A stretch of DNA of 22,025 nucleotides from IMG/VR virus record IMGVR_UViG_3300025646_000432, positions 1-22,025 of that record; one strand, given 5' to 3'. The notes under the pieces were generated by a model. That model searched no databases and was not told the origin of the DNA. It was given only the letters and a program-made list of their open reading frames with translations. The position numbers and the translations under genes are program-made. The stretch is from a virus. Below, in pieces: positions 1 to 22,025 of the stretch (position 1 is its first letter; the number at the start of each line of letters is the position of its first letter).

Positions 1-81
1 CTTTTATCTTTTCTGTTAATTACTATGTTATTTGGCAGTAAAGAAATGCAAGAAAAAATAGAAAACAATAAATTTATTTAG
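1..81 (+). CDS. C-terminal end of a small or membrane protein (partial)
   Basis: An open frame enters from the left edge and stops at TAG (79-81), giving the last 26 residues of a protein. The visible part starts with a hydrophobic run (LLSFLLITMLF) followed by a charged tail (KEMQEKIENN), as in the end of a membrane protein with a short cytoplasmic tail. The next gene begins two bases later, which fits a shared transcript. Nothing identifies a family. An in-frame ATG at 25 exists, but the frame is open to the edge, so this is most likely the tail of a longer gene. Confidence 0.5.
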   Translation, partial: LLSFLLITMLFGSKEMQEKIENNKFI

Positions 82-83
82 TT

Positions 84-503
84 ATGAAAAAGTTATTATT
101 TATTTTAGTTTTATTGAGTGCATTTAATACTAATGCACAATTAGTTGTAAAAGAAGCTGCTAAAGATACTGTTATCTGGCAGGCAACAAAACTATCTACA
201 GTTCCTAAGATTGTAAAGTTTACAACAGAAGGAGAAGAAAGTTATACTATCTACTATCGCAATGCAAAATACACAAGCATAACTGATATAGATTACATAT
301 CAACAGGTGACATTGAAACAACCAAGCAGTTTTATGAATTGTGTAAAGAAGTATCGTCTAGTGGCAAAGAATATAATGTGCAAGTAGATGATAAAAACCT
401 TGTAATATCTAAAGGAACTATGGGTACAGTAATGATATGGATGTCAGGTTCTTATTTTTACTTAAGTGAAAAATACATTAATTCCATATTAGAAAAGTTA
501 TGA
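84..503 (+). CDS. Small secreted protein with Sec signal peptide
   Basis: This 139-residue protein has a classic N-terminal signal peptide: Lys-Lys, a hydrophobic core (LLFILVLL), then SAFNTNAQ. The likely cleavage is after Ala18, leaving Gln19 at the mature N terminus, the pattern typical of exported proteins of Bacteroidota. The mature part (about 120 residues) has alternating beta-like stretches and no membrane segment, cysteine lipobox or recognisable catalytic motif. It is therefore predicted to be periplasmic or secreted by the infected host. The gene overlaps the next one by ATGA (500-503). A role at the envelope, such as superinfection exclusion, is speculation; the family is not recognised. 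Confidence 0.8.
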   Translation: MKKLLFILVLLSAFNTNAQLVVKEAAKDTVIWQATKLSTVPKIVKFTTEGEESYTIYYRNAKYTSITDIDYISTGDIETTKQFYELCKEVSSSGKEYNVQVDDKNLVISKGTMGTVMIWMSGSYFYLSEKYINSILEKL

Positions 504-700
504 AAGTAGAAGTATTATTGAATGGGACAACTAAGATTGTACTTATTCCAGAAAATGAAATAGAAATTGCTATACTAAAAACTGTGTCTGTAGGTGGCAT
601 AGATGCTACAGTTATTACGCAGCATACCCAGATATTAGATAAAGTTATCCAAGAAGGATTAGTAATATCTCCAAGTAAAAGTGATGCTAACAAAAGTTAA
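500..700 (+). CDS. Small hypothetical protein (66 aa)
   Basis: Its start codon overlaps the stop of the secreted-protein gene (ATGA), so it is probably translationally coupled. The 66 residues look like a compact beta-rich module (VEVLLNGTTKIVLIP, then EIEIAILKTVSVGG) followed by a short helix and a polar tail. The C terminus overlaps the start of the radical SAM gene by 17-20 bases. There is no signal peptide, cysteine motif or membrane segment. Family not recognised. A 71-codon antisense frame over the same bases is taken as a shadow. Confidence 0.65.
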   Translation: MKVEVLLNGTTKIVLIPENEIEIAILKTVSVGGIDATVITQHTQILDKVIQEGLVISPSKSDANKS

Positions 701-1547
701 GAGAAAGTCTATGACCATAAGACCATCAGGGAGGTCAACTGATTTTATCAGCCCCTCCTTTGGTCATGGTTGTTTGTATAACTGTACTTACTGTTATATG
801 AAGAGACATAAGCTAGAAGGTTTAGATATTGCAACTAATACTTTGGATATACTAACAGCAATAGACCACCATGTGTGGTTTGCTGATGTAGAGAAACCTA
901 ATCAGACTGGTGATTTTATTACTTATGATATCTCATGCAATGAAGACTTTGCACTGCATGCTAAGTATCATGAATGGGAAAGAATATTTGAGTTCTTTAG
1001 AGATCACCCTCTTGCTATGGGTTCATTTGCTACTAAGTATGTGAATCCTGATCTTTTAAAATTTGATTCTGCTTATAAGATAAGAATCAGATTCAGTGTA
1101 ATGCCAGAGAAGTTAAGACAGATATTAGAACCTAATACAAGTACTATCCAAGATAGATTAGATGCGGTAGTTAAGTTTCAATCAGCAGGCTATGACGTAC
1201 ATCTTAATTTTAGTCCTGTAGTAGTATACGATGAATGGTTAGATGATTATAAAGAATTGTTTAAGCAAATACAATCTACAATGCAAAGAGATATGTGGAG
1301 TTATACTGCTGTAAAAGCTGAAGTAATATTTCTTACGCATAATGAAGCTAAGCATGAGTACAATCTAGCCCATCAACTACCAGGAGAAGAGTATCTATGG
1401 TGTCCTGACATTCAGGAAAGTAAGACATCCCAATATGGTGGTGAAAACATCAGGTATAAGCATGATCTAAAAGCTGAGTACATCAGACAATGGGCTGAGC
1501 TACATGATCAAATTATCCCTTGGAATACAATACGTTATATATTTTAA
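684..1547 (+). CDS. Radical SAM protein of the spore photoproduct lyase (SPL) family
   Basis: A 287-residue radical SAM enzyme. The [4Fe-4S] motif CX3CX2C is Cys30/Cys34/Cys37 in the segment GCLYNCTYCYMKRH. Further on, RIRFSV...EPNTS...RLDAV...AGYDVHLNFSPVV...W..DYKELF matches from memory the order of conserved blocks in Bacillus SplB (RFRFS, EPGTS, RLAA, AGYK, W..GYFELF). Cys85, in YDISC, sits where SplB has its hydrogen-donor cysteine. Known SPL uses a 5'-deoxyadenosyl radical to reverse 5-thyminyl-5,6-dihydrothymine. The protein lacks about 60 N-terminal residues compared with SplB (about 342 aa). I chose ATG 684 over GTG 681. The fold is secure; the lesion substrate is inferred and could be another UV dimer or something else. 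Confidence 0.82.
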   Translation: MLTKVKRKSMTIRPSGRSTDFISPSFGHGCLYNCTYCYMKRHKLEGLDIATNTLDILTAIDHHVWFADVEKPNQTGDFITYDISCNEDFALHAKYHEWERIFEFFRDHPLAMGSFATKYVNPDLLKFDSAYKIRIRFSVMPEKLRQILEPNTSTIQDRLDAVVKFQSAGYDVHLNFSPVVVYDEWLDDYKELFKQIQSTMQRDMWSYTAVKAEVIFLTHNEAKHEYNLAHQLPGEEYLWCPDIQESKTSQYGGENIRYKHDLKAEYIRQWAELHDQIIPWNTIRYIF

Positions 1548-1550
1548 GAT

Positions 1551-2000
1551 ATGATAAAAATTGGAAGTGCAAAATATAATGTAACTAACTTAGATCAAGT
1601 TGGTAGAAAAGTTGCTAAAGCTTTGACAAAAGATGTTGTTAATGAACACTATCTTATAACAAAGGATAAAGACAGCAATCTTAATTATTTATGGTGGATG
1701 TATAAAGATGGAAATAAGAAAGATCAATTTAATCCTTTTATTTTTAATTTTGAATTGAATCTTTTAGAAGCTCTTGATATTATAAATAAAGATCAATCAG
1801 ATCACATATCTCAAATGTTAAATTCAGAAGACTTAGATAATACTTATATTGCTGTGTGTAGTATATCTTATTTAAGAAAGGAAAGAATTGAGAAGCACGG
1901 TGAATATGGAAAATCTGATAATGTATCTGATGAGTTTAAAGAAGTTATTGATAGATACCCATCTATCGTAGTTAAAAGTTATTTATCTTTTGGAAAATGA
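1551..2000 (+). CDS. Hypothetical protein with an 'MLNSxDxDN' helical motif
   Basis: A 149-residue soluble protein three bases after the SPL-like gene, in the same apparent operon; its stop overlaps the next start (ATGA). Family not recognised. The middle (about residues 84-102) carries ISQMLNSEDLDNTYIAVCSI, which closely resembles a segment in two other proteins of this window (genes at 10244-10645 and 13335-14396). The shared core is ML-(N/S)-S-x-D-x-DN followed by an Ala in a hydrophobic helix, reminiscent of one HEAT-like helical unit. The rest is charged, with no enzyme motif, signal peptide or membrane segment. Confidence 0.7.
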   Translation: MIKIGSAKYNVTNLDQVGRKVAKALTKDVVNEHYLITKDKDSNLNYLWWMYKDGNKKDQFNPFIFNFELNLLEALDIINKDQSDHISQMLNSEDLDNTYIAVCSISYLRKERIEKHGEYGKSDNVSDEFKEVIDRYPSIVVKSYLSFGK

Positions 2001-2251
2001 GTGAAGAAGAATTAATAGAACTAAACTTTGATAAAGTAGTAGTTACTATAGAAGAAAGCGGTGATAAAAATGATTATTACTACTACAAATATAATCTTAA
2101 CGACAATTTTGTATTAATGAGTAATCCTTCTGATGAAAAAGAAGCTGGTCAGTGGTATGTAAATGATTGGGATTTAGGTATAAAAATTAAAGATATAGAA
2201 GATGTTGAATTATTGATCGCTCTTTTCAGAAAGTGGTCCAAGATCGTCTAA
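1997..2251 (+). CDS. Small acidic hypothetical protein (84 aa)
   Basis: It begins on the stop codon of the preceding gene (ATGA at 1997) and is probably translationally coupled. The protein is acidic and tyrosine-rich (DKNDYYYYKYN), with a tryptophan-containing segment (QWYVNDWDLGIKIKDIED) and a C-terminal helix. No family recognised. Its last 42 bases overlap the tail of a gene on the opposite strand (2210-2533), so the two transcripts converge through coding sequence. If the - strand gene were spurious, this one would be unaffected. Confidence 0.65.
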   Translation: MSEEELIELNFDKVVVTIEESGDKNDYYYYKYNLNDNFVLMSNPSDEKEAGQWYVNDWDLGIKIKDIEDVELLIALFRKWSKIV

Positions 2252-2533
2252 ACTTGCGTCAACGGGCTCTTTACTTGTATGTAATTGTAGTTTTTCATTA
2301 ATTATAGACATTAGAACTATTGATGCAGCTTCTTTCCAACAGTCATCGATTGTAACAGAAAGCACATCTAATGGTATAGGCGTTTTTAATATTTCTCCAG
2401 TTCTTAAATGAATATTGGTTCCTGCTTCAGGATTTCGTATATTTGTAAAAGATAACCTGGTGATATGAGTAACATTTAACTGTTCAAAATATCTTTGACC
2501 ATCTTGTTCTCTAAATTCAATTCCTATAAACAT
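2210..2533 (-). CDS. Hypothetical protein (107 aa) on the reverse strand
   Basis: The only substantial open frame between the flanking + strand genes, so probably real despite its isolated orientation. Its 107 residues start with beta-like stretches (MFIGIEFREQ, VTHITRLSF, TNIHLRTGEILKTPIPLDVL), then a helix (DDCWKEAASIVLMSIINEK) and a polar tail. The pattern 'G..IHLRTGEI' followed by 'PLDVL...IDD' loosely recalls small FlbD-like beta domains, but this is too weak to call. The C terminus overlaps the + strand gene ending at 2251 by 42 bases. The start faces the next + strand gene across about 39 bases. Confidence 0.6.
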   Translation of the reverse strand: MFIGIEFREQDGQRYFEQLNVTHITRLSFTNIRNPEAGTNIHLRTGEILKTPIPLDVLSVTIDDCWKEAASIVLMSIINEKLQLHTSKEPVDASLDDLGPLSEKSDQ

Positions 2534-2572
2534 ACTTTAAGTGTATAATATAAAGTTAATAATTTTTTGCTT
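2534..2572. promoter_or_regulatory. Short divergent intergenic region, candidate promoter pair
   Basis: These 39 bases separate the starts of a - strand gene (ends 2533) and a + strand gene (ATG 2573), so promoter elements for both directions should lie here or just inside the genes. The region is almost pure A/T and contains TATAAT at about 2544-2549 and a T-run before the + start. No convincing Bacteroidota-type TTTG / TAnnTTTG pair at correct spacing was found. The assignment rests mainly on geometry. Confidence 0.3.
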
Positions 2573-2959
2573 ATGTTTTTAACCACATTAGTAAAAGCCG
2601 ACTCTAAGTTAGGCTATGTTGATAAAAAAGATAAACTTCTTTATCAATTGTTTCTTGATAAAATAAAAGATGGACAAGAAGTAGAAGTATATTTTTCTAT
2701 TAAAGGATCAAAAGCAAATGCTTCTCAAATTGCTAAAGTTCACGCTTCTATACGTGAAATAGCGTCTGAATTAGGATTTTCTTTTGAAGATATGAAACTG
2801 ATTATAAAAGAAAAAGCAGGGCTTTGTTTTGAAGTACAAGACAGTGATGCTAAAAAAGTAGTGTGCAAATCTTTTGCTGATTGCAGTTACGCAGAAATTA
2901 GTTTGGCAATTGAAGCTTGTAATCAAGTAGCTGAAAAGAATAATATTATGCTTGGGTAG
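2573..2959 (+). CDS. Small phage protein, possibly NinB-like recombination factor
   Basis: A 128-residue protein starting at ATG 2573 (an in-frame TTG lies six bases upstream). The order of elements is a lysine-rich strand pair (KIKDGQEVEVYFSIKGSKA), a helix (SQIAKVHASIREIASELG), a helix leading to a glycine (FEDMKLIIKEKAGLCFEV), then KSFADCSYAEISLAIEACNQVAEKNNI. The pattern 'Q..K.H..IREIA...G....MK..IK...' and 'KS...CS..E....IE' resembles phage NinB/Orf-type recombination mediators as I remember them, but no residue is diagnostic. It overlaps the tail of a - strand gene by 14 bases. A role in DNA metabolism is only a suggestion. Confidence 0.7.
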   Translation: MFLTTLVKADSKLGYVDKKDKLLYQLFLDKIKDGQEVEVYFSIKGSKANASQIAKVHASIREIASELGFSFEDMKLIIKEKAGLCFEVQDSDAKKVVCKSFADCSYAEISLAIEACNQVAEKNNIMLG

Positions 2960-3260
2960 GTTCTACGTAACCTTCATCTCCAGGCTCTAATATCTCTTTT
3001 TCTACATATAAGTTATTTTCTTTAGCTGTTCTTTCAATTTCAGCAAGTAGTAACGTAACTGTATAAAAAGATCTTTCAAAGTCATTCATATCTTCGTATT
3101 TACCTGTCATGATTTTCTTAAGAGACTCTTCTCTTTTTGCATCATCAGTAACAGTTTGAAATAAAAAGTATGATAGAGCTTTTGTCATAAGATAATAAGA
3201 CTTGTTTACTTTAATTTCTACAAGTGCATCATCTTTGAGTTCTTTTACATTAATTGCCAT
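2946..3260 (-). CDS. Hypothetical protein (104 aa) on the reverse strand
   Basis: A 104-residue reverse-strand protein lying tail-to-tail (14-base overlap) with the preceding + gene and head-to-head with the uracil-DNA glycosylase gene, 30 bases away. No competing + strand frame covers it. Sequence: a short beta-like N terminus (INVKELKDDALVEIKVNKSYY), then mainly helices (TKALSYFLFQTVTDD, LKKIMTGKYEDM, FERSFYTVTLLLAEIER) and an acidic Gly/Pro tail. This looks like a small helical phage protein, perhaps structural or a chaperone, but nothing specific is visible. Its strand differs from all replication genes around it. Confidence 0.65.
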   Translation of the reverse strand: MAINVKELKDDALVEIKVNKSYYLMTKALSYFLFQTVTDDAKREESLKKIMTGKYEDMNDFERSFYTVTLLLAEIERTAKENNLYVEKEILEPGDEGYVEPTQA

Positions 3261-3290
3261 AATTATTAATTTTTTACAAATTTAAAAAAA
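3261..3290. promoter_or_regulatory. Very short divergent gap before the replication block
   Basis: Only 30 A/T-rich bases separate the - strand gene start (3260) from the UDG start (3291). A bacterial promoter with a -33/-7 pair does not fit twice here, so at least one promoter must extend into the neighbouring coding sequence. No clear consensus element was identified. Confidence 0.25.
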
Positions 3291-4004
3291 ATGTCAAACA
3301 AATTAGATATTGAAGATATCAAAGAGAAAGTTGCTGAAAAACTAAAACCTTCTGGATGGGACAGAATTCTTAGAGGTTTTATTTACAGTAAAGAGTTTGA
3401 TGATATCATTATTACTTTAGCTAAACAAAGCAAAGATGGTAAAAGATTTACTCCGGTATTAAAAAATTGGTTTAGGGCTTTTGAAGAATGTCCTTATGAA
3501 GACTTAAAAGTAATTATTGTAGGACAAGATCCTTATCCAGGATTAAATCATGCTGATGGTATTGCTTTTAGTTTGAGTAATTCTGATACAATTCAACCAA
3601 GTTTAGAGTATATGTTTAAAGCTATAAATGATACTGTATACGATGGAATGGGTGTTTGCACAGATATGAATTTAAAAAGATGGTCTAATCAAGGAGTATT
3701 ACTATTAAACACTGCTTTAACTACTGTAATTGGTAAAGTAGGACAACATCATATAGTATGGCAACCTTTTATGGCATATCTATTTGACTGGTTAACTTGG
3801 AATAACAATGGTCTTGTTTATATTTATTTGGGTAAAAAAGCTGAAGAGTGGTCACATGCTGTAAATGATAACAATTACAAGTTGTTTGCTACACATCCTG
3901 CATCAGCACTTTACAATAATCTAACTGATTGGGACTCAAATAATGTTTTTAAAACAGCAAACGAAATTCTTAAGAAGAACTATAACACAGAAATAAATTG
4001 GTAA
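3291..4004 (+). CDS. ung: Uracil-DNA glycosylase, family 1 (UNG type)
   Basis: A 237-residue family 1 uracil-DNA glycosylase, which cuts the N-glycosidic bond of uracil in DNA to start base-excision repair. The water-activating motif is GQDPY at 78-82 (Asp80), followed by PG, then HADGIAFS. A uracil-pocket segment LLLNTALTT lies near 137-145, and the C-terminal minor-groove/His motif is HPAS at 202-205 (His202). It differs from the usual family 1 strings: GQDPYP instead of GQDPYH, and HPAS instead of HPSP. Length is typical (about 220-240). It is the first gene of the + strand replication block; together with the MazG-like gene at 19593 it fits control of uracil in phage DNA. UDG is a recurrent gene of crAss-like phages. 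Confidence 0.93.
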   Translation: MSNKLDIEDIKEKVAEKLKPSGWDRILRGFIYSKEFDDIIITLAKQSKDGKRFTPVLKNWFRAFEECPYEDLKVIIVGQDPYPGLNHADGIAFSLSNSDTIQPSLEYMFKAINDTVYDGMGVCTDMNLKRWSNQGVLLLNTALTTVIGKVGQHHIVWQPFMAYLFDWLTWNNNGLVYIYLGKKAEEWSHAVNDNNYKLFATHPASALYNNLTDWDSNNVFKTANEILKKNYNTEINW

Positions 4005-4005
4005 T

Positions 4006-4599
4006 ATGGAAGACATCTTTAACAAATTAATTAAAAACAATCTTACACCTAACCAATATTATATTCTTTGGTGTGTAAAAAATAATTTAGCCCCTAAGTT
4101 CAATCTTAATCTTTCTGTTGAGATATTAAGACTTCAAAATGATGACTGGTTAAATGAAGATAAGAAACTTACTAGTAAGTCTATTATTCTTGTTCAAGAA
4201 TTAGAATCTTATTTCAAGAACAGTAAGAAAAAGTCTTCTGCTAACATAATGGGAGAAGATTTTATTAAGAGAATTGATGAGTATTTAGAAATTTTTCCTA
4301 AATTTAAACTTCCATCTGGCAAATACGCTAGATCTGATAAGAAGAATTTAGAGAATAATTTTAGATGGTTTTTTGAGAACCATAGTTATGATTGGGATAC
4401 GGTGATTAATGCAACAAAACTATATGTAGATGAATATGAGAGACAAGGATACAAGTACATGAGAACTTCTCAGTATTTTATCCGCAAATTAAACCCCGCT
4501 GAAAAGACCTTTGAGTCTGAATTAGCAAACTATTGTGAAGTATATCAAAATGGAGGCGGGAATTACACAGAATCACATTTTAGCGAAAGAGTAGTATGA
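4006..4599 (+). CDS. Hypothetical protein, candidate replication initiator or helicase loader
   Basis: A 197-residue soluble protein one base after the UDG stop. The N terminus (about 1-80) looks like a small helical DNA-binding domain (LTPNQYYILWCVKNNLAP, then EILRLQNDDWLNEDKKLTSKSIILVQELE, a winged-helix-like order). After a polar linker (KNSKKKSSANIMG) the C-terminal part is a helical domain (RIDEYLEIFPKFKLPSGKYARS, then NNFRWFFENHSYDWDTVINATKLYVDEYERQG). A winged-helix N-terminal domain plus helical C-terminal domain directly before a DnaB helicase gene is the usual arrangement for phage initiators and loaders. No motif proves it; the role is inferred from architecture and position. Confidence 0.75.
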   Translation: MEDIFNKLIKNNLTPNQYYILWCVKNNLAPKFNLNLSVEILRLQNDDWLNEDKKLTSKSIILVQELESYFKNSKKKSSANIMGEDFIKRIDEYLEIFPKFKLPSGKYARSDKKNLENNFRWFFENHSYDWDTVINATKLYVDEYERQGYKYMRTSQYFIRKLNPAEKTFESELANYCEVYQNGGGNYTESHFSERVV

Positions 4600-4769
4600 G
4601 GCGATTTAAGCTTTTTACAATTGCAGTACTGGGAAGTATAATAGGATACTTTGCGATAAATACTTTTATTGTACAAGTAAATATTTTTCAATATTTGGTA
4701 ATTGAGTTTATTGTAACAATTCTTCACACATTATATAATGTAGCAAAGAATCAAGAGCAACCAGCATAA
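4596..4769 (+). CDS. Tiny membrane protein (57 aa), two predicted TM helices
   Basis: A short gene filling the space before the helicase. Its ATG (4596) overlaps the previous stop as ATGA, and it stops at TAA 4767-4769. The 57 residues begin MRRFK, then a hydrophobic segment (LFTIAVLGSIIGYFAI), a short turn, a second hydrophobic segment (FQYLVIEFIVTILHTLY), and a polar tail ending QEQPA. Positive N terminus and two apolar segments predict a hairpin with both ends in the cytoplasm. Position between a putative loader and the helicase could mean membrane attachment of replication, but it may equally be a small host-modifying protein. Confidence 0.65.
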   Translation: MRRFKLFTIAVLGSIIGYFAINTFIVQVNIFQYLVIEFIVTILHTLYNVAKNQEQPA

Positions 4770-4776
4770 AAAACAT

Positions 4777-5784
4777 ATGAGTGATGTAAAAAAGACTCCC
4801 AAGAAAAAGTGGAATAGTCAAAGAGAAGGTTTTCAAGAATCTTTAAAATACTTGCAAGGTAGAATGCAAGGGCAAATAAAGAGTATAAGAACACCTTGGG
4901 CAAAGTTTAATGATGCAACCACAGATGGTTTAGAATGGAATACTATCAATGTTATTGGTGGTAGACCAGCAAGTGGTAAGACATTAATAGCTGAACAAAT
5001 TGTTAGAGAATCTTTTGTTCTAAATCCAGGCGAAGACTTTAGAGTACTACAGTTTCAATTTGAAATGCTTGCAAGAACTTCAGCAATACGTGAGTATTCA
5101 AGTATTGTTGGTAAATCTTATAAGTATCTATGTAGTGCTGATGGTAAACTAACGACAGAAGATTTACAAAAATGTTATGATTACGCAAAAAAGAAAGTAC
5201 AATATCCAATAGATGTAGTTGAAACTCCTTGTACAGTTGACGATTTCAAGGAAATAGTTAGGGATTATATGCACTTTCATGCAAGTTATGATTCAGAAGG
5301 GAATATAAAATTCAAGAATGTTATTATTACTATTGACCACTCTTTATTATTTAAGAAAGCATCTTATGAAAAAGATAAGCATGACATGTTAAATAATTTA
5401 GGAGAAGCTTTAACAGCTCTTAAGAAAATTTATCCTGTAATGTTTATTGTGCTTAGTCAGCTCAATAGAAATATTGATAATCCTGAGAGAAATGAAGATG
5501 GTAAATATGGTAATTATATTCTTGAGTCTGATCTATTTGGTGCTGATGCTTTATTGCAACATGCTGATAATCTTATCGGTATAAATAGACCTGCAAAACA
5601 AAAGATTAGATTTTATGGTCCTGATAGGTATGTGATTGACGATGACAGAGTTTTAGTACTACACTTTCTAAAATGTAGAAATGGTGATACGAGAATGAGT
5701 TTCTTTAGAGCTGAATTTGAAAAGATGAAAATAGTAGAGATGATTACACCTCCTCAACAGGAGAAACGATTAACAACCAAATAA
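4777..5784 (+). CDS. DnaB-type replicative helicase (RecA-core only)
   Basis: A 335-residue SF4 helicase core that would unwind the phage replication fork. The Walker A motif is GRPASGKT (62-69); the Walker B acidic position is in VIITIDHSLLF (Asp187); a later motif VLSQLNRNID is the DnaB/RecA H3-type segment (SQLNR); near the C terminus AD.LLQHADNLIGINRP and the basic LHFLKCRNGDTRMSFFRAEFE match the end of DnaB-family ATPases. Only about 50 basic residues precede the ATPase, so the DnaB N-terminal domain that normally contacts primase is missing. This is usual for some phage helicases and means loading and primase coupling may depend on other proteins, possibly the 197-aa product upstream. 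Confidence 0.9.
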   Translation: MSDVKKTPKKKWNSQREGFQESLKYLQGRMQGQIKSIRTPWAKFNDATTDGLEWNTINVIGGRPASGKTLIAEQIVRESFVLNPGEDFRVLQFQFEMLARTSAIREYSSIVGKSYKYLCSADGKLTTEDLQKCYDYAKKKVQYPIDVVETPCTVDDFKEIVRDYMHFHASYDSEGNIKFKNVIITIDHSLLFKKASYEKDKHDMLNNLGEALTALKKIYPVMFIVLSQLNRNIDNPERNEDGKYGNYILESDLFGADALLQHADNLIGINRPAKQKIRFYGPDRYVIDDDRVLVLHFLKCRNGDTRMSFFRAEFEKMKIVEMITPPQQEKRLTTK

Positions 5785-5793
5785 TTTTTAATT

Positions 5794-6330
5794 ATGAGTT
5801 TAACAACAAAAAGTAGTTCTGTAAACAGAAAAGAAAAGACAGAGTTGTTATTTAAGCATCATGAGTGGAAATTTAAACTTCTTGGTGAAGATGACCCACT
5901 TTTCATTGCTAAAGTAGCATATCCTCCTCCCGGAAAAAATGAGTATTTCATTGGAGTCTTTCCAAGTGAAATAAGAAAAGGTAAAGATATCTATACTGAA
6001 TTTACAAGTTCAGATTTAGATGTTGAAGATCCTGAAAGAACTCTTTATAAGTGGAGATATAATCCTCACTATGAAGAAGAATATGAAAAAACAGAAGTCA
6101 GTGCTACAGGAAGTTTTAGATATCTAATTCCTGTTGCTGAATTAGTTAAGATTCAGTTTGATGAAGAACCTACATCTGAACCAGCACTATTTCCAAATTT
6201 TGAAGAAATAATGAATCCTGATTTAGATGCACCACTTAGTCAAATGACTATTAGAGACTTAGCTGCTATTATGCTATCTAAACCAGTAAGTACTAAGAGT
6301 TGGCTTAATGATTTAATTAAAAACAAATGA
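5794..6330 (+). CDS. Hypothetical protein between helicase and Sak4-like ATPase
   Basis: A 178-residue soluble acidic protein, start in the context TTTTTAATTATG. Its stop overlaps the next start (ATGA). The N-terminal two thirds look beta-rich (HHEWKFKLL, LFIAKVAYPPPG, EYFIGVFPSEI, GSFRYLIPVAELVKIQF). After an acidic linker (DEEPTSEPALFPNFEEIM) comes a helical C-terminal segment (APLSQMTIRDLAAIML, then PVSTKSWLNDLI) that looks like a protein-binding helix pair. No catalytic motif seen. Its tight position between helicase and recombination ATPase suggests a replisome or recombination accessory role, which is inference only. Confidence 0.75.
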   Translation: MSLTTKSSSVNRKEKTELLFKHHEWKFKLLGEDDPLFIAKVAYPPPGKNEYFIGVFPSEIRKGKDIYTEFTSSDLDVEDPERTLYKWRYNPHYEEEYEKTEVSATGSFRYLIPVAELVKIQFDEEPTSEPALFPNFEEIMNPDLDAPLSQMTIRDLAAIMLSKPVSTKSWLNDLIKNK

Positions 6331-7046
6331 GTATAATACTTCCTACTAAAAAAGTAAAGGCAGAAAGAGTAAATCCCAAGAGGATGATAATATACTCTAA
6401 ACCTAAAACTGGTAAAACAACAGCTTTTGCTGGTTTAGATGATAATCTCATTATTGATTTAGAAAATGGTAGTGATTATGTTGAAGCTCTTAAAGTTAAA
6501 GCTAATAATTTACAAGAATTATTAGACTTAGGTAAAGCAGTAAAAGAAGCTGGTAATCCATATAAGTTTGTTACAGTAGATACTGTGACTGCATTAGAAG
6601 ATATGGTAATGCCTCTTGCAATAAAACTGTATAGAAAAACGCCTATGGGTAAAAACTTTGATGGAGATAGTGTAATTACATTACCGAATGGTGCTGGTTA
6701 TTTATATATTCGTCAAGCATTTTTTCAAGTATTAGACTTTATTGATACACTTGCTCCTACAATCATCTTGTCTGGTCATATTAAAGACAAACAAGTAGAT
6801 GATAAAGGTGAGATGGTAATGTCTGCAAATATTGATTTAACAGGTAAAATAAAATCTTTAATTTGTGCAAATGCTGATGCAATTGGATATATGTACCGAA
6901 AAGGAAACCAAACTATTCTTAGTTTTAAGACTGCAGAAGAGGTTACTTGTGGTGCAAGACCAGAACATTTACGAAATCAAGAGATTGTAGTAACTGAGAT
7001 GATTGATGGTGTCCTTAAAACAAATTGGGACAAAGTATTTATTTAA
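6327..7046 (+). CDS. Sak4-like / AAA_24 P-loop ATPase
   Basis: A 239-residue RecA-fold ATPase of the phage type often annotated AAA_24 or Sak4. Walker A is SKPKTGKT (24-31); the next strand ends NLIIDLENGSDYVEALKV; a Walker B-like strand is KFVTVDTVTALEDM (around 78-92); a further strand TIILSGHIKDKQVDDKGE has the His-containing sensor region; then NIDLTGKIKSLICANADAIGYM, which is typical of this group. Known Sak4 proteins act in single-strand annealing recombination, stimulated by SSB. Here an SSB-like gene follows 20 bases later, the usual pairing. It overlaps the preceding stop by ATGA. Family assignment is from motif order and context. Confidence 0.82.
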   Translation: MSIILPTKKVKAERVNPKRMIIYSKPKTGKTTAFAGLDDNLIIDLENGSDYVEALKVKANNLQELLDLGKAVKEAGNPYKFVTVDTVTALEDMVMPLAIKLYRKTPMGKNFDGDSVITLPNGAGYLYIRQAFFQVLDFIDTLAPTIILSGHIKDKQVDDKGEMVMSANIDLTGKIKSLICANADAIGYMYRKGNQTILSFKTAEEVTCGARPEHLRNQEIVVTEMIDGVLKTNWDKVFI

Positions 7047-9902: not shown

Positions 9903-10244
9903 ATGGCACATCCTTGGCAACATGCAAAATCCTCAGCTAAAAAGTTTGGTGGTTCAGCAATGGATTATATAGATATTCATAAATGGTTTGATGAAACCAA
10001 AGCTTGGATAGGACATAGCAAACACAGAATGTTTAGACATCATAGTGAAGGTATCTTTGAATGTGAGAAAAGATTTGGTATGACTATTACTAACTGTGAT
10101 GGTAAAGAGGTGTATGTAAGATATATTGGAGAACAACATGTAAAAGAAGATTGCAACGGGTATATTCCAAGTGCAAAAGAATGGGTAGATAATATAAATA
10201 CACCCACAGAATGGATGATTAGAACATTAAAAATGGAAGACTAA
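9903..10244 (+). CDS. DUF6915-like conserved phage protein
   Basis: A 113-residue protein with a recognisable conserved pattern: MAHPWQHAKSSAKKFGG at the N terminus, IHKWFDETKAWIGHSKHRMFRHHSEGIF in the middle, then ITNCDGKEVYVRYIGEQHV.ED and a C-terminal IPSAKEW. It is rich in conserved His and Trp, which could bind metal, but its function is unknown to me. This family (DUF6915 as I remember it) is widespread in phages and proteobacterial plasmids. The stop overlaps the next start by one base (TAATG). Assignment is by remembered pattern only. Confidence 0.78.
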   Translation: MAHPWQHAKSSAKKFGGSAMDYIDIHKWFDETKAWIGHSKHRMFRHHSEGIFECEKRFGMTITNCDGKEVYVRYIGEQHVKEDCNGYIPSAKEWVDNINTPTEWMIRTLKMED

Positions 10245-10645
10245 TGAATTTAACAATTTCTGAAGCAGATAATTTATTATCTATGCTTAATTCAAATGAT
10301 AAAGATAATATGTATATAGCTTTTAAAGCTATTGAAGCCCATGATTTTTCAGGACCCGACTTTGGATATCTTATTTATTTGTATAAATTTAGTAACACCT
10401 CAATACAAGATTGGTCTGAAAACGCGCCAACACCGCTTAACAAATTAAAAAAATCTTGTAATAATGAGTTGCCTACTCTTACACATGCAAAAAGTATTAC
10501 ACTTTTAATTGAGAATGAGGCAAACCCTGATGTTATAAATGCTTATATAGAAAAGCATATAAAAGATATAAATAGCATGTTTTATAATATGGGATATCCT
10601 ATGGAGAATATTGATTTAACCCTTAATCTAAAAACTAATGAGTAA
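10244..10645 (+). CDS. Hypothetical protein with an 'MLNSxDxDN' helical motif
   Basis: A 133-residue protein beginning at a TAATG overlap and ending in an 8-base overlap with the metallopeptidase gene. Near the N terminus (about 9-34) it carries NLLSMLNSNDKDNMYIAFKAIEAHD, which shares 10 of 13 residues across its core with the 149-aa protein at 1551-2000 and resembles a segment of the 353-aa protein at 13335-14396. After this come aromatic-rich helices (FGYLIYLYKFSNTSI) and helical repeats to the end. No enzyme motif. Its coupling to the metallopeptidase/VWA gene suggests it could belong to that cluster. Confidence 0.7.
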   Translation: MNLTISEADNLLSMLNSNDKDNMYIAFKAIEAHDFSGPDFGYLIYLYKFSNTSIQDWSENAPTPLNKLKKSCNNELPTLTHAKSITLLIENEANPDVINAYIEKHIKDINSMFYNMGYPMENIDLTLNLKTNE

Positions 10646-11873
10646 AGAAGCAACTTTAGGTAAAGCATCTAAAGAACTTATGTGGAAAGAGCCCTTCTAT
10701 GGGTTCTTTCTTATTATGTTAAACAAAATTTGGAATAATAAACTTGTACCTACTGCCGGTGTAAGTAAAAATGGTATTAACTATCAGCTTACAATAAATG
10801 AAGATTTTTGGATGAGTTTATCTGAAAATCATAGAATTGGTTTATTAAAGCATGAGTTATTACATATTGCATATTTTCATCTAAGTAAATTCTTTGAATT
10901 CTCAGATAGAAAACTGGCAAATATAGCTATGGATATGGAAATCAATCAATATATTGATAAAGATTTTCTTCCTGATGGTGGTATTGATATAGATGATTAT
11001 AAAGATCTTAATCTTGAACGAAAAGCAGGTACTCGTTATTATTATGAAGCTTTACAAAAAGCAAAAAATAAGAAAGATCAAACTGGTACATCAGGTGATG
11101 AAAATTTTGATAAGCTTTGTGATGCTCTTGACGAAGGTGGCGACATTATTATTATCGGCAATGCTCCAGGAAATGGAGAAAAAGAAGTTAATATTCCTAA
11201 TCATGGTACATGGGAAGAATTTGATAATTTAAGTGAAGCTGAGCAAAAGATTATGCAAAAGCAATTAGATAGAATTATTCAAGAAGTTGCTGAGCAGACT
11301 GAAAAGAAAAGAGGTACTATACCTGGTCACATTAACGATTATCTTATTGCTATTAATGAAATAGAGCCTCCTAAGTTTGATTGGAAAGGATATCTTAGAA
11401 GATTTACTGGCACGAGTACAAAAATCTTTACAAAGAAGATTAGAAGAAAAGAAAATAAGCGCTATTCAGATAATCCAGGGTTAAAGATTAAAATGAAGCA
11501 ACACATGTTATTAGGTATTGATACTTCAGGTTCAGTAAGTGATAATGAGTTACAAGAGTTTATGAATGAGATTTATCACATTTATAAAACAGGTGTTGAT
11601 ATCACTATTATTCAATGTGATACTATAATCAGATCTATAGAACCTTATAAAGGTAAATTCGAAATGGCTTTTGGTGGTAGAGGTGGTACTGAATTTGACC
11701 CGGTTTTGGAATATTATAATGCTAATCTAAAGAAATATACAAGTCTTGTATATTTTACTGATGGTGAATGTGATACTTCAGTTAAACCTAAGAACCCTGT
11801 TTTATGGGTATTATCTGAACAGTCAAATATGAATAATTCTCTACCTGGTAAAGTAATTAAATTAGAGTTATGA
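10638..11873 (+). CDS. DUF2201-type metallopeptidase-like / VWA domain protein
   Basis: A 411-residue two-domain protein. The N-terminal domain has a zinc metallopeptidase signature HELLH at 72-76 (His72, Glu73, His76), with His81 as a possible third ligand, inside LLKHELLHIAYFHL. A linker region rich in charged residues follows (about 130-270). The C-terminal VWA-like domain has an intact MIDAS start DTSGS (Asp295, Ser297, Ser299) and a later Thr/Asp region GRGGTEFDP and LVYFTDGECD. DUF2201-VWA proteins work in known cases next to MoxR-type AAA+ ATPases, as here (12067-13242). The usual idea is ATPase-driven handling of a metal- or protein-bound target. The substrate here is unknown. Confidence 0.85.
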   Translation: MSKEATLGKASKELMWKEPFYGFFLIMLNKIWNNKLVPTAGVSKNGINYQLTINEDFWMSLSENHRIGLLKHELLHIAYFHLSKFFEFSDRKLANIAMDMEINQYIDKDFLPDGGIDIDDYKDLNLERKAGTRYYYEALQKAKNKKDQTGTSGDENFDKLCDALDEGGDIIIIGNAPGNGEKEVNIPNHGTWEEFDNLSEAEQKIMQKQLDRIIQEVAEQTEKKRGTIPGHINDYLIAINEIEPPKFDWKGYLRRFTGTSTKIFTKKIRRKENKRYSDNPGLKIKMKQHMLLGIDTSGSVSDNELQEFMNEIYHIYKTGVDITIIQCDTIIRSIEPYKGKFEMAFGGRGGTEFDPVLEYYNANLKKYTSLVYFTDGECDTSVKPKNPVLWVLSEQSNMNNSLPGKVIKLEL

Positions 11874-12064
11874 TATGTTGTATATGTAATAAAGAATTTG
11901 ATGAAATTGAAAAAATTGACATAGACGGTCATGAATTTTACTACAGAGGTGGGCATAATCCCCATCCTATAGAAGAAGAAGGAAGATGTTGTACTAATTG
12001 TAATTTCACAATTGTTGTACCAGAAAGAATGAAACTATCAATTAATAACAAAAACAAAGATTAA
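11870..12064 (+). CDS. Small zinc-ribbon protein (64 aa)
   Basis: A 64-residue protein coupled to the VWA gene by ATGA overlap. Two CxxC knuckles, CCIC (Cys3, Cys6) and CCTNC (Cys41, Cys44), frame a short body containing FYYRGGHNPHPI, so a single zinc site is expected. The pattern 'RGGHNP.P...EGRCC..CN..VV' recurs in small conserved bacterial and phage proteins as I recall them. It sits between the VWA/metallopeptidase and MoxR ATPase genes, suggesting that it is part of the same functional unit, perhaps as a substrate or nucleic-acid-binding adaptor. Confidence 0.8.
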   Translation: MICCICNKEFDEIEKIDIDGHEFYYRGGHNPHPIEEEGRCCTNCNFTIVVPERMKLSINNKNKD

Positions 12065-12066
12065 AA

Positions 12067-13242
12067 ATGGCTCAAGTAAAACTAAACATTGATGACCTAA
12101 AGAATTTTATGGGACATATGGTTAAGAATAACCAGCATATTCAAGCTCAGGGAAAAGTACCTGTAGCTGTTAACATTGAAGGTGAAGCAGGTCTTGGTAA
12201 GACTTCATCTATTTTACAACTAGCAAAAGAAATGGATATGGCTGTAGTTAAACTTAACTTAAGTCAAATCGAAGAACTTGGTGATTTAATTGGTTTTCCA
12301 TTTAAAGAATTTGAGATAGAAAATAAAGAAGGTAAAACTAAATGGATTCAAGATACTTTACTTGAGACTTATGTTAAAAGTGGATTTAAACCAACCGGTC
12401 AAAGTAGAATGTCGCATGCGTCTCCTGAATGGATTCAGGGACAAAGCGAGGGTGGTTTCTTGATTCTTGATGATTATACTCGTGCTGATCATAGATTTAT
12501 GCAAGCTACTATGGAATTAATTGATAGACAAGAATATATCTCTTGGAAACTCCCTAAGAACTGGCATATTGTATTGACTACTAATCCAGACAACGGTGAT
12601 TACAATGTTACCAGTCTTGATATTGCTCAAAAGACTCGATTCATTTCTGTTGAAGTAGATTTTGATGTTAGTGTATGGGCTAAGTGGGCAGAGAATGTAG
12701 GTATTGACGGTAGATGTATTAACTTTTTGTTGATGAATCCTGAAGTAATTACTAAATCTGTTAATCCTAGATCTATTACTACTTTCTTTAATGCAATCAG
12801 TTCTATACCTAAGTTTGAAGATGAGTTACCTCTAATTCAGATGATTGGTGAAGGTTCTGTAGGTGATGAAACAGCTAGTTTATTTACTATGTTTATTAAT
12901 AATAACTTAGATAAAATAATTAGTCCTCAAGATATTATTACTAACCAAAATGAAGCTTATGTTCTTGGAGCATTAAGCTCATCTGTTGGTAAAGATGATA
13001 ACTTTAGAGCTGATATTTCTAGTGTTATTACAACAAGAATTATAAATTACTGTTTAACACATGCTGATAAACATGGAGTAAATGATGCTATGATCAATAG
13101 ATTGATTAAGCTTACTACAGATTGTGATTCGTTTACAGATGATCTTAGATACTATATGGTAAAAGAAATACTAAATGGTAACAAGGTTAAGTTTCAAAAA
13201 CTAATGATGAATCCTGCGGTAGTCAAGATGGCTGTCAAGTAA
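12067..13242 (+). CDS. MoxR-type AAA+ ATPase
   Basis: A 391-residue AAA+ ATPase. Walker A is GEAGLGKT (39-46); Walker B is GGFLILDDYTRAD (Asp135, Asp136); a sensor 1-like segment is WHIVLTTNPDNGDYNVTSLD, and a following KTRFISVEVDFDVSVWAKWAENV matches the region after sensor 1 in MoxR-type proteins. The C-terminal portion (from about 210) is helical lid plus an extension. MoxR ATPases act as chaperones for VWA proteins, which agrees with the VWA/metallopeptidase gene just upstream. Tandem hairpins follow its stop. Membership is solid; the client is unknown. A specific role in phage DNA metabolism is suggested only by location. Confidence 0.85.
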   Translation: MAQVKLNIDDLKNFMGHMVKNNQHIQAQGKVPVAVNIEGEAGLGKTSSILQLAKEMDMAVVKLNLSQIEELGDLIGFPFKEFEIENKEGKTKWIQDTLLETYVKSGFKPTGQSRMSHASPEWIQGQSEGGFLILDDYTRADHRFMQATMELIDRQEYISWKLPKNWHIVLTTNPDNGDYNVTSLDIAQKTRFISVEVDFDVSVWAKWAENVGIDGRCINFLLMNPEVITKSVNPRSITTFFNAISSIPKFEDELPLIQMIGEGSVGDETASLFTMFINNNLDKIISPQDIITNQNEAYVLGALSSSVGKDDNFRADISSVITTRIINYCLTHADKHGVNDAMINRLIKLTTDCDSFTDDLRYYMVKEILNGNKVKFQKLMMNPAVVKMAVK

Positions 13243-13252
13243 TACAATTATT

Positions 13253-13270
13253 AAACAGTTCCCTGTTTTT
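13253..13270 (+). terminator. Weak first hairpin after the MoxR gene
   Basis: AAACAG (13253-13258) and CTGTTT (13263-13268) pair around TTCC and are followed by more T. The six-pair, A/T-rich stem is weak alone but lies 10 bases after the MoxR stop and ahead of a stronger hairpin, making a tandem arrangement. Confidence 0.45.
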
Positions 13271-13285
13271 CTTTCATTTTACAAC

Positions 13286-13320
13286 TAGAGGATAGAAATA
13301 ATTCTATCCTCTATTGTTTT
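13286..13320 (+). terminator. Strong second hairpin after the MoxR gene
   Basis: TAGAGGATAGAA (13286-13297) pairs perfectly over 12 bases with TTCTATCCTCTA (13302-13313) around an ATAA loop, followed by TTGTTTT. It ends about 14 bases before the next start codon (13335), too close for a separate promoter in between. Read-through or an overlapping promoter must supply the downstream gene. Confidence 0.85.
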
Positions 13321-13334
13321 AATTATTTTTAATT

Positions 13335-14396
13335 ATGAAACACTATAAATATATAAGTGGATATTCAGACTATTCACTTAATGATTTTACTGATATTATT
13401 GGAGCATTTAGTGATAATTATGTTTTGAACAATGCTCCCTTTACTCTTCATTCTGATTATACAATAAATCAAAATGAAAAACTATATTTTTTACCAGGCA
13501 CAAGTGTTCCTAGAATTAAATTAAAAGACATATTTGCTCAAACAAAATCAAAAACCACAAGAAATATTGCTGAGGCTACCAAAGTAATAGGTTCTGTAAA
13601 ATCTTTAGATAAACTACTAGACGCTACTTGGTATTATTGGGTAACTGTTCCAAAATTTCTGGAATTCTTAGAAATAGCACTTAACAAAGGAGATGTTCAT
13701 CCAGATGATTATAAAGATACTATAGATCATGTAATAAATGATGAAATTATACTAACTGATTATGCTTTTATTAGAAATCTTAAATGTAATGAAAGCATTA
13801 CATTGACACCTGAAATAGATTATATTCAAGGATCTCGTAAATTTTTACATCTTGAAGATAAATATTTTGATATATGGGATGAGCTTAAGGACTGCACTGT
13901 CTATGATGAAGCTACTCTTATCAGTTTAGTAAATGGTGACGATTCTACAAGTATTGATGAAAAAATGTTTGAGTCTTTAAGTCAAATGTTATCTAGTTCT
14001 GATGAAGATAATCATGTATTAGCTTTAGAGATAATGGCTAATTCTAATTACTCAGATAGTCTTTATTACTTATGTCTATTATTTGAACAGTTTCATTATA
14101 TAATCTCTAATACTAGAACTCGTAATCATGTAAACTTTAAATCTTTAGTTTATTACATGGGATTCGCAAGTCCTAATTATGTCAGTATGACTAAAGATTC
14201 AATTGTTGAATTATTGGTTGAAAGAGATGTTTTTACACCAAAAATGGCAATGGATCTTCTGCAGAAATATAATGAAGATATTATTAACTATGGAAGTAGT
14301 GAAAAATTTGCTGTTACTAAAGTAAGTTACTCAAAAGATGTGTTAGAATATTTAAATAATAAAAAAGTAAATGAGTCAGTTGTTGATACCGAATAA
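13335..14396 (+). CDS. Hypothetical protein (353 aa) with an 'MLSSxDxDN' motif
   Basis: A 353-residue soluble protein, start in the leader context TTTTTAATTATG. The N-terminal half includes YSDYSLNDFTDIIGAF and FLPGTSVPRIKLKDIF; the central region is helical (KFLEFLEIALNKGDVHP). Around residues 211-238 it has SLSQMLSSSDEDNHVLALEI, related to segments in the proteins at 1551-2000 and 10244-10645, followed by YYLCLLFEQFHYII and further helices. I do not recognise a family or a catalytic motif. The last 26 bases overlap the start of the nuclease gene, so the two are probably translated together. Confidence 0.8.
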   Translation: MKHYKYISGYSDYSLNDFTDIIGAFSDNYVLNNAPFTLHSDYTINQNEKLYFLPGTSVPRIKLKDIFAQTKSKTTRNIAEATKVIGSVKSLDKLLDATWYYWVTVPKFLEFLEIALNKGDVHPDDYKDTIDHVINDEIILTDYAFIRNLKCNESITLTPEIDYIQGSRKFLHLEDKYFDIWDELKDCTVYDEATLISLVNGDDSTSIDEKMFESLSQMLSSSDEDNHVLALEIMANSNYSDSLYYLCLLFEQFHYIISNTRTRNHVNFKSLVYYMGFASPNYVSMTKDSIVELLVERDVFTPKMAMDLLQKYNEDIINYGSSEKFAVTKVSYSKDVLEYLNNKKVNESVVDTE

Positions 14397-20146: not shown

Positions 20147-20178
20147 AGGGGGATCTTCGGGTCCCCCTTTTCTTTTTT
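20147..20178. terminator. UUCG-loop hairpin between convergent blocks, likely bidirectional
   Basis: GGGGGATC (20148-20155) pairs with GGTCCCCC (20160-20167), with a C(UUCG)G tetraloop and one G-U pair. A47-T68 extends it. A T-run follows on the + side. On the - side ATTTTA follows, so it may also stop the reverse transcript from the large gene ending at 20177. It marks the strand switch. Confidence 0.88.
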
Positions 20179-22025
20179 ATTTAAGATTTTCAAACATCTC
20201 TGCTTTCTTAATAGCCCATTCAGGTGACCAGTTTTTACCTTTAATACCAAATAATGAAAAGAAGTGATTCCACAATTTGTATTTTCCTTCATCTTGCCAT
20301 GCATAAGGCCCTACAGCTCTTTTATAATATGCTTTATCGCTACCTGTTACAATATAGAATAAATCTGTAATTAATTTAGCATATAAATCTAAAGTAGGTC
20401 CTGTAACAATTGTAGTACTATCTGTAAACTCTAACCAATCATTAACACCTAATCCTGGTAATGGTATGAACATTTCATTTTCTTTACGTATCATGATTAA
20501 TTGATATAATACATGATTTGCTGCCCAACCAAAAGCTCCATATGTTTCTTCTCTACTTCGAATTTTATTAAAACGATCTTCATCTCCAGAGTCATAACCA
20601 AATAATAATACTACTGCCATATATAATAAAGCTACATAAAGACCTTCAGATATCACTTTAGTTATTGCAATTTTATCTTCCTTACTCATCAGAGGCCAAT
20701 AATTTTTAGCATCTGTTACTAATTTATACATAGACTGAAAAGCAGTAATATAATATCCTTTAGTTGTAGTACCTAAATCCCAATCATATACTTCACCCCA
20801 TCTATTTTCTTTTGATAAATCTGCTTGGAATCTATTTAAAAACATAGGTAATGCAAACTTTCTATAGAAGGTACCTAGTCTATATAGCAGATATTTATTA
20901 GCTTGTGCACTGTCTACATCATCAGTCATACCATTTAACTTTTTACCAAGACCTTTTATTTTCAATCTAAAATCTAAAAACTTATCGTTTTTGTAAATAG
21001 TTATATCATCACCGACTTGAATAGAGTCTACATCTTTTATTTTATTTATTTTTATTAACTCTTCTACAGTTACTTTATATTGTTTTGCTATAGATTCAAG
21101 AGTATCGCCTTCAGTAAATTCATGAGTGAGACCTTCAGTACCATATCTAGGATCAACACCTTGTTTCAATACTAACTGTTTTTCAGAATTTAATTCCCAC
21201 GCATCAATATATCTTATCTGTTTAACAGAACCATCTGGTTGTACTTGATCTACTTTTTTTCTATACATCATTGCTGCAAAAAGAGTCAATCCTTCTTGAA
21301 CTTCCATATGTGTTCTTGGATCATACATCCATGTACCATTTAAAAAGTCTTTAAGAAAAGTTCTAGATGTAGATTTTCCAAAATCAGCTTTAGTTTTACC
21401 TGTGATAGGATCAAAGTTTTCCATTAATTGGATCATTAAACTCTTCGGACCTTTAGAATAAACATCTTTTGTAGATAATTGTATCATCGCTTGGTGTGCC
21501 CATACTCTACCTAATGCTAATGATTGTGCATTTATATATTTTCCACCCGCTGTTTCAACAAGTGTTTGAAATAACATACCATATTTATTCTTTAAGGCTG
21601 CTGAGATATCTAAAGCTGCATAAGCTCTGTGAGCACTTCGCATTAAACCTTGCGCAATTTTAGTAATCTTTACAGAATCTTCTGAAAGAGCATCTTGACC
21701 TTGTCCATAGTATACTTTATCAATAAAATAATCTAAAGCTTGAGCTCTTTTATTATCAGTTCTTTCTGGTATAAATCTAGTTATTTTAGCATTTTTCTTA
21801 TATGTTAAACTTGCTTTATTTACATTTTTAATAGCATTAGCTGGGTCATTTAAAACATCTGATAAAGCTTCTGCAATAGGCAACCCATCTTTCAATGCCT
21901 CTTGAGCATTTAATGAATACATATATTCAGCAAGAGATTTCAATGGATCTTTAGAAACAACATTTTTATCCATTCGATATAACCCCCTAATAGGTACTGT
22001 TGTAATAGGTTGACCTTGTAAATCT
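20177..22025 (-). CDS. C-terminal part of a large, probably virion-associated protein with LysM (partial)
   Basis: On the reverse strand an open frame runs from the right edge to TAA at 20177-20179. ATG 21973 has the frame open upstream of it to the edge, giving about 616 residues in view, so the true start is outside. Numbered from that Met: a helical region to 250; a LysM domain about 284-328 (EGDTLESIAKQYKVTVEELIKINK then IQVGDDITIY); a helical region; a hydrophobic segment near 440-460 (GLYVALLYMAVVLLFGY); and a C-terminal tail. It is the first gene of an opposite-strand block. In crAss-like phages such blocks carry giant virion and RNA polymerase proteins, so this is likely a virion or ejected protein. 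Family itself not recognised. Confidence 0.8.
   Translation of the reverse strand, partial: DLQGQPITTVPIRGLYRMDKNVVSKDPLKSLAEYMYSLNAQEALKDGLPIAEALSDVLNDPANAIKNVNKASLTYKKNAKITRFIPERTDNKRAQALDYFIDKVYYGQGQDALSEDSVKITKIAQGLMRSAHRAYAALDISAALKNKYGMLFQTLVETAGGKYINAQSLALGRVWAHQAMIQLSTKDVYSKGPKSLMIQLMENFDPITGKTKADFGKSTSRTFLKDFLNGTWMYDPRTHMEVQEGLTLFAAMMYRKKVDQVQPDGSVKQIRYIDAWELNSEKQLVLKQGVDPRYGTEGLTHEFTEGDTLESIAKQYKVTVEELIKINKIKDVDSIQVGDDITIYKNDKFLDFRLKIKGLGKKLNGMTDDVDSAQANKYLLYRLGTFYRKFALPMFLNRFQADLSKENRWGEVYDWDLGTTTKGYYITAFQSMYKLVTDAKNYWPLMSKEDKIAITKVISEGLYVALLYMAVVLLFGYDSGDEDRFNKIRSREETYGAFGWAANHVLYQLIMIRKENEMFIPLPGLGVNDWLEFTDSTTIVTGPTLDLYAKLITDLFYIVTGSDKAYYKRAVGPYAWQDEGKYKLWNHFFSLFGIKGKNWSPEWAIKKAEMFENLK

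Follow-up and report, generated by a model that had tools for sequence, protein, structure and literature searches.

A MoxR ATPase gene and a metallopeptidase-VWA gene form a conserved pair in the replication arm of a crAss-like phage lineage

Results

The window analysed here is the whole of a 22,025-nucleotide DNA stretch (positions 1 to 22,025 of the IMG/VR virus record IMGVR_UViG_3300025646_000432). It carries a gene for a protein joining a DUF2201-type metallopeptidase domain to a VWA domain (hereafter the VWA protein) and, shortly downstream, a gene for a MoxR-type AAA+ ATPase. A preliminary description of the window had joined these genes, the zinc ribbon gene between them and possibly the open reading frame (ORF) just upstream, u10244, into one unit inside a phage replication operon. 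Its coordinates, overlaps and gene order were all exact (Table 1), and the neighbours in the window are indeed replication genes, as judged by Pfam and PHROG matches. The tandem hairpins said to end the unit were also confirmed: none of 200 shuffled sequences folded as well as the segment 3' of MoxR (z -6.1), and the second hairpin is terminator-like. The same intergenic space is structured in all 45 relatives examined, there without a shuffle control. Another terminator-like hairpin with a T-rich tail lies early in the VWA coding sequence, at 10684-10711, and may be due to chance.

A scan of IMG/VR with the window MoxR returned 471 stretches encoding a relative, from which 80 loci, several of them on contigs of 90-122 kb, were kept and examined. 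The VWA-MoxR neighbourhood recurs across these 80 loci. Looked for in related phages, the pairing persisted, with a gap of at most 13 nt between the two genes in 70 of 75 related loci; in the remaining five, unrelated ORFs of 50 or 60 amino acids (aa) lie between them. The pair is also adjacent or near in most of the 14 divergent phages examined, and the VWA protein was found in 418 phage records. VWA and MoxR are an adjacent, probably co-transcribed gene pair.

The three-gene unit originally envisaged therefore has to be redrawn: the coupling of VWA and MoxR stands and the upstream gene joins them, and the zinc ribbon drops out. The latter occurs only in the window and in a contig 100% identical to it, is missing from the relatives, and has its sole detected homologue in an unrelated setting. 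We rejected it as a component; by its distribution it is a private insert of the window virus between two conserved genes. In 73 of 74 loci, on the other hand, the VWA start and the stop codon of u10244 overlap. Overall, the module is real and strongly conserved, and probably important.

Table 1. Positions of the features discussed in the window, and of the stretch of four related loci in which the VWA gene is interrupted
Sequence	Feature	Positions	Strand	Length (aa)	Remarks
Window	u10244	10244..10645	+	133	8-base overlap (10638-10645) with VWA gene
Window	VWA protein	10638..11873	+	411	KHELLH; DUF2201 metallopeptidase-VWA
Window	Zinc ribbon	11870..12064	+	64	CxxC...CxxC; ATGA overlap with VWA gene
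Window	MoxR-type AAA+ ATPase	12067..13242	+	391	Starts 2 bases past zinc ribbon
Window	Two hairpins	13253..13317	+		3' of MoxR; second terminator-like
Window	u13335	13335..14396	+	353	C-terminal half carries u10244 domain
L066	Rfam group I intron (83.4 bits)	4664-4970			Between MD and MEIN
L069	Insertion	2843-5095			Apparently at both zinc-ligand motifs; encodes LAGLIDADG_3 protein
L076	Insertion	730-1860			Within HEL/LH; encodes LAGLIDADG_3 protein
L078	Insertion	1-1176			Within HEL/LH

The window is a 22-kb virus fragment devoid of capsid and muzzle genes. A relative with a contig of 115,896 bases (G007) matches Crass_capsid (1e-30) and crAss_MUZ (1e-32) in Pfam, and PHROG matches were obtained for its portal and terminase. 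Terminase_6N misses the large terminase in these phages; PHROG 6681 recognises it. On this gene content the window is a piece of a crAss-like phage. In the 115.9-kb relative, the window-cluster genes tested, DnaB through PolB, share one strand at about 28-43 kb, opposite to the strand that bears the recognised virion genes. In Crassvirales, according to a review (PMC10136315), transcription of the replication module falls in the middle phase and that of the virion module is late. Since the replichore of the module is that of replication, opposite to the one with the virion genes, middle-phase expression of the pair would be expected in the window clade, as far as position can tell.

The VWA protein belongs, as first described, to the DUF2201 metallopeptidase-VWA family: Pfam recognises DUF2201_N at residues 3-261 (3.7e-17), the DUF2201 VWA-like domain at 292-410 (5.5e-17) and PhageMetallopep at the HELLH site, and these are the only fused domains seen in the Pfam scan. 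Its best PHROG is 1314 (3.8e-66), labelled 'HNH endonuclease'. This label, which is repeated in many GenBank phage records, misfits the protein, is misleading and deserves correction; perhaps it stems from the intron endonucleases found inside some family members. In a viral model library, the VWA protein matched homologues from S-TIM5 and PBS1, a 'metallopeptidase domain protein' of a CrAss-like virus that is present there as two pieces, and ORF892 of Acidianus two-tailed virus (ATV), the VWA partner of the ATV MoxR (PMC4124505). The VWA half of its AlphaFold2 model (residues 285-411), the part compared with the PDB, has a VWA fold that matches vWF A2 (Z 12, root mean square deviation 2.5 over 126 residues); residues 244-287 are modelled with low confidence.

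The zinc motif consists of H72-E73-x-x-H76 and a conserved D99, the putative third zinc ligand. All four residues are invariant within the clade, and in sequence-based alignments the aspartate is also found in the aligned phages. Both HELLH and AxDxEIN are present in 75/75 intact clade copies, and HExxH is retained in all 14 divergent phages, where the positions of the metal ion-dependent adhesion site (MIDAS; D295xSxS / T351 / D375) are conserved as well. By motif, then, the zincin site is intact, with HExxH and a putative third ligand.

The identity of the MoxR ATPase likewise held, given a match to PHROG 1297 'ATPase' (1.3e-35) and midasin-type profile matches; the Pfam scan reached no family for it, and midasin AAA modules were the only matches of its family profile in the PDB. 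It is homologous to the 'MoxR-like ATPase' of S-TIM5. Its AAA+ motifs (Walker A GEAGLGKT, Walker B LILDD, sensor-1 TTNP, arginine TRF) are nearly all invariant across 54 clade sequences. At the second acidic position of Walker B, Asp (D136) is found in 54/54 clade members, in both relatives from a Campylobacteraceae metagenome-assembled genome (MAG) and in 7/7 Bacteroidota MoxRs read; the eight further phages amenable to alignment have Glu there.

To compare rates, nonsynonymous divergence (dN) of each gene was divided by the synonymous divergence (dS) of MoxR+VWA for the same locus pairs. Median ratios were 0.10 for MoxR and 0.14 for VWA, compared with 0.13 for PolB, 0.13 for Exo, 0.11 for primase and 0.14 for SSB, so that the pair is as constrained as the DNA polymerase. 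In a first dN/dS pass, u10244 (0.65) and u13335 (0.72) had stood out as uniquely fast, an idea that we dropped because other genes without assigned function are as fast once dS is taken from MoxR+VWA (0.24-0.42 for u10244, 0.53-0.75 for g9472 and 0.57 for u15394). The protein u10244 evolves about two to four times faster than VWA and MoxR, and since g9472 and u15394 are as fast, we do not postulate an arms race.

Four loci have a VWA reading frame that is broken at the HExxH and MD/MEIN codons (Table 1), in one of them by an Rfam group I intron; any splicing of these genes is putative. Elements of such kind use immutable sites. That they hit exactly both zinc-ligand motifs suggests that the zinc-ligand codons cannot change. 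The MoxR gene of Vibrio phage JA-1 is likewise split, by HNH genes, which is a further hint (PMC3670811).

Starting from u10244 instead, the VWA gene comes next in 59 of the 61 loci with room. The AlphaFold2 model of u10244 is all helix, with a predicted local distance difference test score of 87; it had no significant match in the PDB, only a weak armadillo-like one (Z about 6), and searches of Pfam, PHROGs and the PDB gave weak, scattered matches. Its domain was not found beside the pair in the 14 other phages. By gene order and overlap, u10244 is a true third partner, specific to this lineage and predicted to be translationally coupled to the VWA gene. The only locus with the u10244-VWA overlap broken is L061, in which an antisense ORF of 269 aa resembling inserted homing endonucleases lies between the two genes (3651-4520).

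Among the window ORFs, the C-terminal half of u13335 matches the u10244 profile with E = 4.9e-9, so that two copies of the u10244 domain flank the pair. u13335 lies directly 3' of MoxR, the same place in most relatives; its membership in the module is uncertain. A third window protein (1551-2000) has a short motif in common with u10244, LLxxLxSxDxxN (E 7e-6 in the search of the window ORFs).

In phylogenetic trees, the window clade groups with chromosomal Bacteroidota pairs (support 99/98 for VWA and 100/99 for MoxR), apart from the N4-like, PBS1-like, cyanophage and jumbo-phage pairs; the details are rough for MoxR, whose tree has long branches and unsettled bootstrap, and cellular sampling covered Bacteroidota only. 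VWA precedes MoxR in 7/8 adjacent Bacteroidota pairs, whereas MoxR comes first in most other phages. In the sampled order, 26 of 298 genomes carry the protein, and HExxH is replaced by HQxxH in four of the 16 Bacteroidota homologues. The pair is probably shared, as a common lineage, between crAss-like phages and Bacteroidota. Because it was not found in three characterised crAss-like phages (crAss001, phi17:2 and Lbo-JY46), it marks one crAss-like sub-lineage.

Two contigs from the Campylobacteraceae MAG (L166 and L168) have replication arms about 50% identical to that of the window, with the same VWA-MoxR pair; they may be either Campylobacterota phages or misbinned crAss-like relatives. Among the cellular loci, a pair with HQILH (L177) lies near two LRR proteins (3-3413) with a stretch that looks BRCT-type by eye, and in L204 the pair adjoins a large ATPase resembling DndD, also by eye (3211-6827). 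Both LRR proteins of L177 hold a short stretch similar to the u10244 motif. Such a stretch was seen in two of the 16 cellular loci and in none at genome scale in a phylum sample of 148 genomes, and its possible link to the cellular pairs is a lead only.

Two further observations concern the rest of the window. A spore photoproduct lyase-like radical SAM protein (Pfam SPL, 5.8e-25) is encoded at 681-1547, within the phage replication arm. On the minus strand, a 598-aa ORF with a LysM-like stretch (20177-21973) may represent the end of a large virion protein belonging to the other replichore.

Discussion

The module had been put forward as the best candidate for an undescribed system, which it is not in kind. 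Two linked MoxR chaperonin subunits were named in phage 0305phi8-36 in 2007 (PMC2147016), the N4 core of 14 genes includes gp24 and gp25, both of them middle genes (PMC4193335; PMC2784036), and Iyer et al. (2021) described a jumbo-phage pair in which the metallopeptidase is fused in the same way, for which they suggested a function in the virion (PMC7824862). In ATV, the MoxR protein p618 and the VWA protein p892 bind each other strongly, and p892 stimulates the ATPase of p618 (reviewed in PMC4124505). What is new, as far as sequences go, is a separate lineage whose sister group is the chromosomal pairs of Bacteroidota, with which it has the Walker-B 'DD' in common, a helical partner predicted to be translationally coupled, and insertions exactly at both zinc-ligand motifs.

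These systems resemble the window module to different extents. The closest in both trees are the Bacteroidota pairs (L204, L212, L215, L217), mostly with VWA before MoxR and with the DD; unlike the window, they have no phage genes around them and no u10244, and some carry HQxxH. E. coli RavA-ViaA is a MoxR ATPase with a VWA cofactor that assists dedicated protein complexes. RavA carries a LARA domain; ViaA has a helical N-terminal region and, to our knowledge, no HExxH zincin domain. In the group 2.2 jumbo phages, MoxR likewise adjoins a vWA protein whose N-terminal domain is a metallopeptidase (PMC7824862), but the window clade differs from them in its grouping with Bacteroidota, its Walker-B DD, its order of VWA then MoxR, its replication-arm position and its coupled u10244. 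N4 gp24 (AAA ATPase) and gp25 (vWFA), of the Schitoviridae core, are neighbours with HExxH (HELWH in phage Jura) and middle timing, although with reversed order, distant sequence, no u10244 and in another phage family. ATV p618/p892 is a viral MoxR ATPase with a strongly binding, stimulating VWA partner as well, but in an archaeal virus, in tail development and with no metallopeptidase domain reported. VMAP ternary conflict systems (PMC7159879) combine effector domains fused to vWA with a third component, VMAP; for the window module, Pfam showed no fused domain beyond those given above and PADLOC gave no match.

In the literature searched, we found no client of a MoxR/VWA pair in a tailed phage, no paper on MoxR in crAss-like phages and no work on the function of N4 gp24/gp25; the main text on CRISPRi-ART mentions neither phage N4 nor MoxR. 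We propose that the MoxR and metallopeptidase-VWA proteins of the window work as a phage remodelling pair, made together with the products of the middle (replication) genes and acting on a client of the replication phase, a reading to which we give about an even chance of being right. Going by RavA-ViaA and ATV p618-p892, MoxR would assemble into an ATP-driven ring, on which the VWA protein would dock through its MIDAS face, bringing the client; the ring would pull on the client while the zincin domain holds or cuts it. For the window clade, we would add that the client may be a protein complex, of phage or host, that belongs to the replication or transcription phase, and that u10244, made from the same coupled message, may be an adaptor, a regulator or itself a client. 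The net result would be ATP-driven remodelling, possibly proteolytic, during the replication phase. We prefer such a client over virion maturation because the window clade and N4 both group the pair with replication-phase genes.

Several observations weigh against this proposal. MoxR appears to be present in some virion preparations, those of a Staphylococcus jumbo phage and of ATV, and some carriers have the pair near virion genes (a baseplate gene in AH12; also S-TIM5). The three characterised crAss-like phages, as said, lack the pair in our searches. The HQxxH of some Bacteroidota homologues means that zinc binding without catalysis may suffice, and the D136 of the clade, in place of the Glu found elsewhere, could slow hydrolysis.

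Part of this evidence would fit the main rival reading, a role in virion assembly or maturation, with the pair folding or clipping structural proteins or cargo such as a giant virion RNA polymerase or ejection proteins. The suggestion of Iyer et al. (2021) for jumbo phages (PMC7824862), the binding of virion proteins by ATV p618 with stimulation by p892 (PMC4124505), connected with the ATV tails, the discussion of a MoxR-like ATPase as co-packaged in the Staphylococcus jumbo phage preparation (PMC10638138), the AH12 baseplate neighbour and the match of the VWA model to ATV ORF892 all point this way. We nevertheless hold such a role to be somewhat unlikely here, as in the window clade the replication replichore holds the pair and the virion genes recognised lie elsewhere, the N4 homologues are middle genes (PMC4193335) and the ATV system has no metallopeptidase domain (PMC7824862). 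A mechanism without proteolysis, in which the zinc site would be structural or client-holding and the ring alone would do the work, overlaps the other readings, being one of mechanism only. It could account for the HQxxH of four of 16 cellular homologues and for the ATV partner devoid of a peptidase (PMC7824862), but the Glu of HExxH kept throughout the other phages and the intact clade copies makes it, in our opinion, an unlikely one.

The pair could also serve in host takeover or counter-defence, removing or unfolding a host protein (a defence factor or a part of the RNA polymerase) to which u10244 would direct it. Its occurrence in both phages and Bacteroidota chromosomes, the faster evolution of a u10244 that is nonetheless strictly coupled to VWA, and the ability of metallopeptidases to act on host targets are consistent with this idea. 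Counter-defence genes, however, are patchy, while the core of the module is clade-wide and constrained at the level of the polymerase; other genes nearby evolve as fast as u10244 or faster, and PADLOC gave no match, which speaks to defence components alone. We thus consider this role quite improbable. As for the remodelling pair itself, its boldest form, which we put forward as a rather doubtful conjecture, would unite u10244, VWA and MoxR in a tripartite remodelling protease that crAss-like phages use in the middle phase and have either acquired from Bacteroidota or passed on to them; the fast-evolving helical u10244 would be the adaptor that delivers a chosen client, perhaps a host factor or the injected virion RNA polymerase, to an engine that stays constant.

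Pairs of MoxR and metallopeptidase-VWA proteins are encoded in hundreds of phage records and are core genes of the N4 family. In the crAss-like lineage described here, polymerase-level constraint, the tie to the replication arm and one coupled small protein narrow the search for their client. This lineage makes a client of the replication phase more likely than one in virion assembly, and it offers a defined set of three proteins.

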